From Lepidurus packardi (taxonomy: Eukaryota > Arthropoda > Branchiopoda > Notostraca > Triopsidae), in assembly GCA_023053545.1 (NCBI GenBank), contig JAKZAN010000005.1, positions 4,464,001 to 4,528,000 on the forward strand: DNA of 64,000 nucleotides, in the 5' to 3' direction. The notes below the pieces were generated by a model. It searched no databases. It was not told where the DNA came from and worked only from the letters and a program-made list of their open reading frames with translations. This document shows, piece after piece, positions 17,406-18,609 of this stretch. Position numbers and translations under genes: made by a program. Within the stretch, counting starts at the first letter, position 1. Every line of letters begins with the position of its first letter.

Positions 17406-18609
17406 GCTTTGCTGCTCGCTTGTCGCCCTGTCTCAGGTCTCTGTCGTGTTCGTAAAGCGTCGAGGAGTGTGCGGAAGTTTGTGTCGCGGTGAATTCGAGA
17501 GTTTCTTAAGGTAATTACTGCGTCCTATTCGTTTATTGAAAGGTGTAAAACTTGATCCAAGTTACTACTTTAGCGTAACAAAATCTTGAGGCTGCCCCTT
17601 TAATTGTTTCGTGAATTTGTGTCCGTCCAAATGGCGTGCATTTTAACAAGCGAACATGCCATGGAGATGGACGCTTGGGTCTTAGCACGTGGGTTTTCCC
17701 CGATTTACTGGCTATTGAGCGGGGATTTAGGATGATAATTATAAGTTCTGACATCAATGATGTTTAACAGGCTTAATCTTTACTGAAATCCCTTGCTATC
17801 GTGTCTCGCTATTATTGATTTTGGGGCTTTTTACCCGGTAAACTAGGTTCAATACCATGCCACAACGCTAATGCGCAGTTCGTTTCCTTTTTCTGAATTT
17901 CTGTAGGCAACGTCATCATGAGTTCTGCTATGGTTTGCTACCGGTGCAATCGCACAGGGCATTTCGCCAGAGAATGCACTGAAGGAGGTAGCGGCGGCGG
18001 TGGAGGTGGTGGTGGTGGCGGCGGTTATGGCGGCAGCAGCTACAGCTCACGTGGTGGCCGAGGTGGATCTCGCGGAGGTGGCGATCGCGGCGGTGGAGAT
18101 CGCAGCGGTGGCGGATCATCCTTCGGTAGTTATTTTCTTTCCCATTTTCGGCTCCCGAACTAACTCGATTTTGTTGTTAGCGTCTTGCTATACCTGCGGT
18201 AAGCAAGGACATATTGCCCGCGCTTGTCCCGAACAGGGCAACAAGACTTGCTACAACTGTGGCAAGTCGGGACACATTTCTAGGGAGTGTGATGCTGAGC
18301 AACGTAGCGGTGGTGGCGGCGGCGGCGGCGGAAATGGTGGTCGTGGTGGTGGCGCTGGAGGCGGCGGCGGCCGTGATGTAAGTTGGGAAACTCATGTTTT
18401 TCTTTAATTCCATGTGAGTTAATATTAATTTCTTAATCATTTGACAGTGCTATAACTGCGGCAAGAGCGGACACATTTCCCGTGATTGCCCTGAAAGCGG
18501 CTCCGACTCTCGTAAATGCTACACTTGCGGCGAATCTGGACATCTTTCCAGGAATTGCGTCAGCGGTGGGGGTCAGGGTGGTGGCAGTGGCGGAGATGGT
18601 AACTTCTAA
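17396..18609 (+). CDS. CNBP: CCHC-type zinc-finger nucleic acid-binding protein (CNBP)
   Basis: Cytoplasmic and nuclear single-stranded RNA/DNA-binding protein linked to translation. The coding exons 17918-18125, 18181-18377 and 18448-18609 encode 188 residues from ATG 17918. Five CX2CX4HX4C zinc knuckles are visible: [14 protein letters not shown] near the start, then [42 protein letters not shown] and [15 protein letters not shown] long Gly/RGG-rich linker follows knuckle 1, as in CNBP, and there is a second Gly-rich linker. Human CNBP has seven knuckles, so this copy is shorter. A non-coding first exon probably runs from the pyrimidine run at 17396 to the donor at 17510; the intron 17511-17906 ends 11 nt before the ATG and holds a box C/D snoRNA. 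CNBP is a known TOP mRNA in vertebrates, consistent with the pyrimidine-rich start. The glycine repeats also open shadow frames that are not genes. Confidence 0.93.
17722..17792 (+). ncRNA. Box C/D snoRNA in the CNBP 5'UTR intron
   Basis: A 71-nt box C/D snoRNA candidate that would guide 2'-O-methylation of 18S rRNA. A terminal stem GGGATT (17722-17727) pairs with AATCCC (17787-17792). It encloses box C AGGATGA (17729-17735, one mismatch to RTGATGA with the k-turn GATGA intact), box D' CTGA (17748-17751), box C' ATGATGT (17757-17763) and box D CTGA (17783-17786). The twelve bases GGCTTAATCTTT (17770-17781), one base before box D, are perfectly complementary to the conserved 18S segment AAAGATTAAGCC near the 5' end. 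By the D+5 rule the modified base would be the G in AAAG (G41, human numbering as I recall the sequence). The host is a TOP-type gene, the usual class of snoRNA host. The D' guide has no target I recognise. Confidence 0.8.

Follow-up and report, generated by a model that had tools for sequence, protein, structure and literature searches.

The guide described so far that comes closest to the one analysed here is Me-Eh-SSU-G41, a box C/D snoRNA predicted in Entamoeba histolytica with G41 of the small subunit (SSU) rRNA as its target, and its antisense element is 100% identical in E. dispar (PMC3542256, passages on this guide). In that table the row of this guide carries no asterisk, the sign used there for validation by RT-PCR or northern blot. 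It shares with our candidate the guide core GCTTAATCTTT, the single spacer nucleotide before the box and the target G41, but its guide stands before a TTGA box, i.e. on the D' side, and its gene is listed as intergenic (PMC3542256, same entry). The same short segment of 18S rRNA is also addressed by plant SnoR66 and Dictyostelium CD35, which guide 18S Cm38 according to the relevant parts of three reports (PMC8053127, PMC11542601, PMC8817022). Unlike that of our candidate, their target is a C, 4 nt upstream of G41 after alignment of the numberings. For this alignment we assume an offset of +1 between Cm38 and the numbering of the genome's own 18S rRNA.

As far as the cited portions of the maps go, there is no methylated G at this place in the Dictyostelium RiboMeth-seq rows for the SSU (Am28, Cm38, Am432; PMC8817022), in the Arabidopsis list (A28, C38, U123; PMC8053127) or in a plant table that shows human and yeast sites only where they are shared with plants (Am28, Cm38, Um123; PMC11542601). 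The main text of a study of Drosophila S2 cells mentions neither Gm42 nor G42 nor G41, and the parts cited do not print the full list of sites (PMC13228274). Among the literature matches listed for G41, Gm41, G42 or the guide sequence, the Entamoeba paper alone is relevant; mentions of "Gm41" concern, where passages were shown, 28S Gm41xx or larger 28S numbers, and no title on chelicerate rRNA methylation was relevant among the matches listed. To our knowledge, human and yeast 18S rRNA are not methylated at this G. An earlier note on this DNA had suggested that the site may be lineage-specific. The rarity implied by this is weakened by the E. histolytica guide for the same G (PMC3542256, as above): with a predicted guide of the same core and register, G41 is an uncommon target, not an unprecedented one.

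A predicted snoRNA in the leader intron of a CNBP-like gene

The window, i.e. the whole 64-kb stretch of DNA analysed, is C4:4464001-4528000 in a genome of 108.6 Mb and 344 contigs. The features of the locus are collected in Table 1. Four boxes, a 6-bp terminal stem and a guide adjoining box D, all within 71 nt, had been claimed for this intron, and they are indeed present and in register. The boxes are slightly less regular than this implies: all four are there, yet both box C and box C' have one mismatch to RTGATGA. Hence, an exact box D is joined to a one-mismatch box C by the 6-bp stem, and internally an exact CTGA D' accompanies a one-mismatch C'. The second position of box C lacks the usual U, which counts against the snoRNA reading.

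Table 1. Coordinates of the predicted snoRNA and its host gene in the window.
Feature	Position	Strand	Details
Host intron 1 of CNBP-like gene	17511..17906	+	leader intron, GT-AG, 396 nt
Predicted box C/D snoRNA, 71 nt	17722..17792	+	boxes, stem, guide pairing, chance scan
Terminal stem, 5' arm GGGATT	17722..17727	+	6/6 pairs with 17787-17792
Box C AGGATGA	17729..17735	+	1 mismatch to RTGATGA
Box D' CTGA	17748..17751	+	exact
Box C' ATGATGT	17757..17763	+	1 mismatch to RTGATGA
D guide GGCTTAATCTTT	17770..17781	+	12 bp with nt 38-49 of own 18S, all Watson-Crick
Box D CTGA	17783..17786	+	exact
Terminal stem, 3' arm AATCCC	17787..17792	+	pairs with 17722-17727
CNBP-like coding region, 188 aa	17918..18609	+	exons 17918-18125, 18181-18377, 18448-18609 in the model used

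The C/D scanner counts seven stem pairs, the seventh being an outer G-U beyond the 6-bp terminal stem. The trinucleotide TAG (17728-17730) separates the stem from GATGA and has no counterpart on the D side, and we take this 3-nt bulge with a bulge-free D side to be the geometry of a C/D kink-turn. The guide region between box C' and box D measures 19 nt, and the folding z-score over 17716-17798 is -2.92. At the curated gathering cut-off, an Rfam search of the 64-kb window returned no match to a snoRNA family; below the cut-off, four C/D families gave weak alignments spanning nearly the whole element (E 0.47-3.4). Box C/D snoRNAs are stable RNAs of 60-90 nt to which fibrillarin, NOP56/58 and 15.5K bind, and the element very probably encodes a real one.

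It lies in sense to the host gene, with its 3' end 114 nt upstream of the 3' splice site of intron 1, and the ATG at 17918 is in exon 2, which agrees with the claim of a location in the leader intron of CNBP. As in CNBP, the encoded protein combines an RGG stretch with an array of CCHC zinc knuckles, here five. Human CNBP has seven zinc knuckles, and for this reason we name the host "CNBP-like". The frame is preserved as well by an alternative donor 3 nt downstream of the one in the gene model. A search of the genome with a 107-aa query gave 73 matching places, of which the best two are the gene's own exons and the next has E 1.7e-10; many of the remaining zinc-knuckle matches share frame lengths and might thus be repeated elements. 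Matches of the protein among solved structures are mostly retroviral zinc knuckles, as expected for the motif. Upstream of the exon 1 donor there is a pyrimidine-rich stretch. A pyrimidine-rich leader is typical of TOP genes.

The idea that CNBP would be an unusual host is weakened, because snoRNAs within introns usually have host genes of broad expression (PMC3511168, in the part cited). Among the literature matches listed, none presents CNBP or ZNF9 as a snoRNA host in its title or the start of its abstract.

Pairing with 18S rRNA and the predicted target

The genome's own 18S rRNA was found through Rfam matches, and its nucleotides 38-49 read AAAGATTAAGCC. This 18S looks like that of an arthropod, perhaps a mite. 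The guide, placed 1 nt before box D, pairs with them without a mismatch, and this uninterrupted pairing covers D+2 to D+13, with a predicted duplex energy of -17.2 kcal/mol. Methylation guides form about 10 or more uninterrupted pairs adjoining box D or D', and their target is the base under D+5. Here there are 12 such pairs and the base under D+5, in the genome's own numbering, is G41, so that both the 12-base guide to a conserved 5' segment of 18S and the G predicted earlier are recovered with the organism's own rRNA. The target is present in 18 of the 18 fetched 18S copies, but these were retrieved by a pattern containing it and their agreement is no independent test.

We propose, with a probability of roughly 0.8, that intron 1 of the CNBP-like gene encodes a box C/D snoRNA that would guide 2'-O-methylation of 18S G41. 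The snoRNA would be freed from the spliced leader intron by debranching and trimming, and trimming would stop where the C/D core proteins shield its ends. Its D guide would then pair with nt 38-49 of 18S in the pre-rRNA, as the complementarity of the two sequences suggests, and fibrillarin would add the 2'-O-methyl group to G41, as predicted by the D+5 rule. The D' half probably has a structural role alone, because the rRNA that could be compared offers no target for it: there is no match of at least 9 nt in the 18S, 5.8S or 28S of one rDNA copy (L022), and the best match in another (L074) has only 8 nt and lies outside the matched rRNA segments. The 28S is incomplete in both copies, so that this search covered it in part.

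A genuine C/D snoRNA might also use its 12-bp pairing mainly as a chaperone of rRNA folding near the 5' end of 18S and leave G41 largely or wholly unmethylated. Chaperone-type C/D snoRNAs exist, and the pairing (nt 38-49) is indeed close to that end. The cited part of the Dictyostelium map fits this possibility, since its SSU rows list Am28, Cm38 and then Am432 and thus have no G here (PMC8817022). Yet, the guide adjoins box D in the exact methylation register, with 12 uninterrupted pairs from D+2 to D+13, and we consider a role confined mainly to chaperoning unlikely.

If methylation of G41 guided from this intron is confirmed, it would add one more guide and one probable methylation site in an animal branch without a map among the matches listed, and would make it simple to test if methylation of 18S G41 has more than one origin. 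One might speculate, at slightly less than even odds, that a lineage-specific, CNBP-hosted snoRNA family methylates G41, a site predicted in Entamoeba as well but not seen in the parts of the fly, human, yeast and plant maps covered here, and that the site was gained more than once. The general view of box C/D snoRNA function would be unchanged.

The rRNA copies themselves are heterogeneous. After CATGACAAAGA, 56 nt of otherwise conserved sequence are missing in 13 of the 17 scored 18S copies and kept in the other 4, and the copies without them, on C1 and C16, fall into two types that differ slightly. The observation concerns the copies L002-L006 and L013-L020; L011 and 7 further pattern matches stand outside the count. 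The 28S match in L074 stops after model position 2345 (L074:7532), as if interrupted by an insertion, which is possibly, though this is a guess, an R-type retroelement.

Chance expectation and other targets

The element might also be a look-alike, in which words resembling the boxes and 12 nt complementary to rRNA coincide in an intron by chance. We estimated the expectation with an order-3 Markov null trained on the gathered sequence, simulated over 3.2 Gb and scaled to both strands of the 64-kb window; the criteria were set post hoc, with the candidate already seen. With at most one mismatch in box C, a stem of at least 6 and a guide of at least 12 at D or D', the null gave 100 hits, i.e. 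4.0e-3 per window, and with the guide at D only it gave 40 (1.6e-3). The same stem and guide at D or D' together with a C' were found 8 times (3.2e-4 per window), and with both a C' and a CTGA D' 3 times (1.2e-4). The full set, including C' and CTGA D' and with the guide at D as in the candidate, had 0 hits in 3.2 Gb. An earlier null of 320 Mb had given 7 hits for a stem of at least 6 and a guide of at least 12 (2.8e-3 per window).

For that looser set about 7 matches are expected genome-wide by chance, which together with the post hoc criteria means that the argument depends on the complete anatomy together with the intronic sense position. At a loose setting (stem at least 5, guide at least 9) the window has one match, the candidate, for 0.51 expected. 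The 11-nt guide core with box D (GCTTAATCTTTNCTGA) has exactly one exact occurrence in the 108.6 Mb. When one mismatch is allowed, the genome has 9 places that match the core with CTGA and 12 that match a reversed control, hence the exact match alone stands out. A look-alike is thus favoured by the yield of the looser set and by the absence of an Rfam match above the cut-off; set against the rarity of the full set in 3.2 Gb (no hit for a guide at D, 3 if D' is permitted as well) and the position in an intron, in sense to the CNBP-like gene, it appears highly unlikely.

There is a very slim chance that the element is a C/D snoRNA or scaRNA acting mainly on another RNA, e.g. U5 snRNA: the stretch TAAAGATT of the genome's own U5 (L069) offers a G at D+5, but only 8 Watson-Crick pairs, from D+1, against the 12 with 18S. 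For U2 in L072 the guide forms 8 pairs, 7 of them Watson-Crick, and the 9-nt matches of the D' side in the U2 loci L071 and L073 are at the edges of the compared stretch, in the flanks. This comparison covered U5 and U2, and it bears on the RNA of the plus-strand loci only, since the minus-strand loci L068, L070 and L071 were compared in antisense. In the U2 search of the genome, three matches scored about 180 bits, and 25 others did not exceed 65 bits.

Scanner controls

In a control scan of 168,379 bases on both strands (stem at least 5, guide at least 10; rDNA and three duplicate loci excluded, some overlaps kept), the scanner returned two matches. One is the candidate, with a guide of 12 and a stem of 7, and the other is a SNORD18-like snoRNA in RPL4, with a guide of 13 and a stem of 5. 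Reversed-rRNA decoys also gave two matches, both with guide 10 and stem 5.

Positive-control patterns were short motifs from the human U27, U24 and U18 guides, and only one of the three led to C/D RNAs, which counts against the candidate. The U27 (A27-type) pattern had 0 exact and 39 one-mismatch matches, where the reversed control had 12; no C/D boxes were seen by eye in nine contexts (8 distinct places of the 39), nor did any turn up in a scan of the fetched loci that was confined to a box C close to the match. Neither of the 2 genomic matches of the U24-type pattern is C/D. Rfam searches for SNORD14 and SNORD27 returned nothing in this genome, and likewise nothing in 14 control genomes, so that this negative carries no weight. 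The U18-type pattern had 4 matches. Two are in RPL4 and include the one that the scanner returned; the other two are not C/D-like. The RPL4 locus (L058) had been fetched for its guide and thus shows that the scanner recognizes a true snoRNA, not its detection rate.

The introns of RPL4, a host confirmed by Pfam, contain two SNORD18-like C/D snoRNAs 448 nt apart, at L058:1480-1545 and near 1930-2000, the second being C/D-like by eye alone and not returned by the scanner. We presume that the RPL4 element is SNORD18 (U18), a long-known family whose human host is RPL4. Like the candidate, the SNORD18-like RNA is an intronic C/D RNA with a one-mismatch box C, found in the same genome by the same scanner, and its host is a translation gene; unlike the candidate, it targets 28S from D', at an A (nt 805 of the L022 copy).
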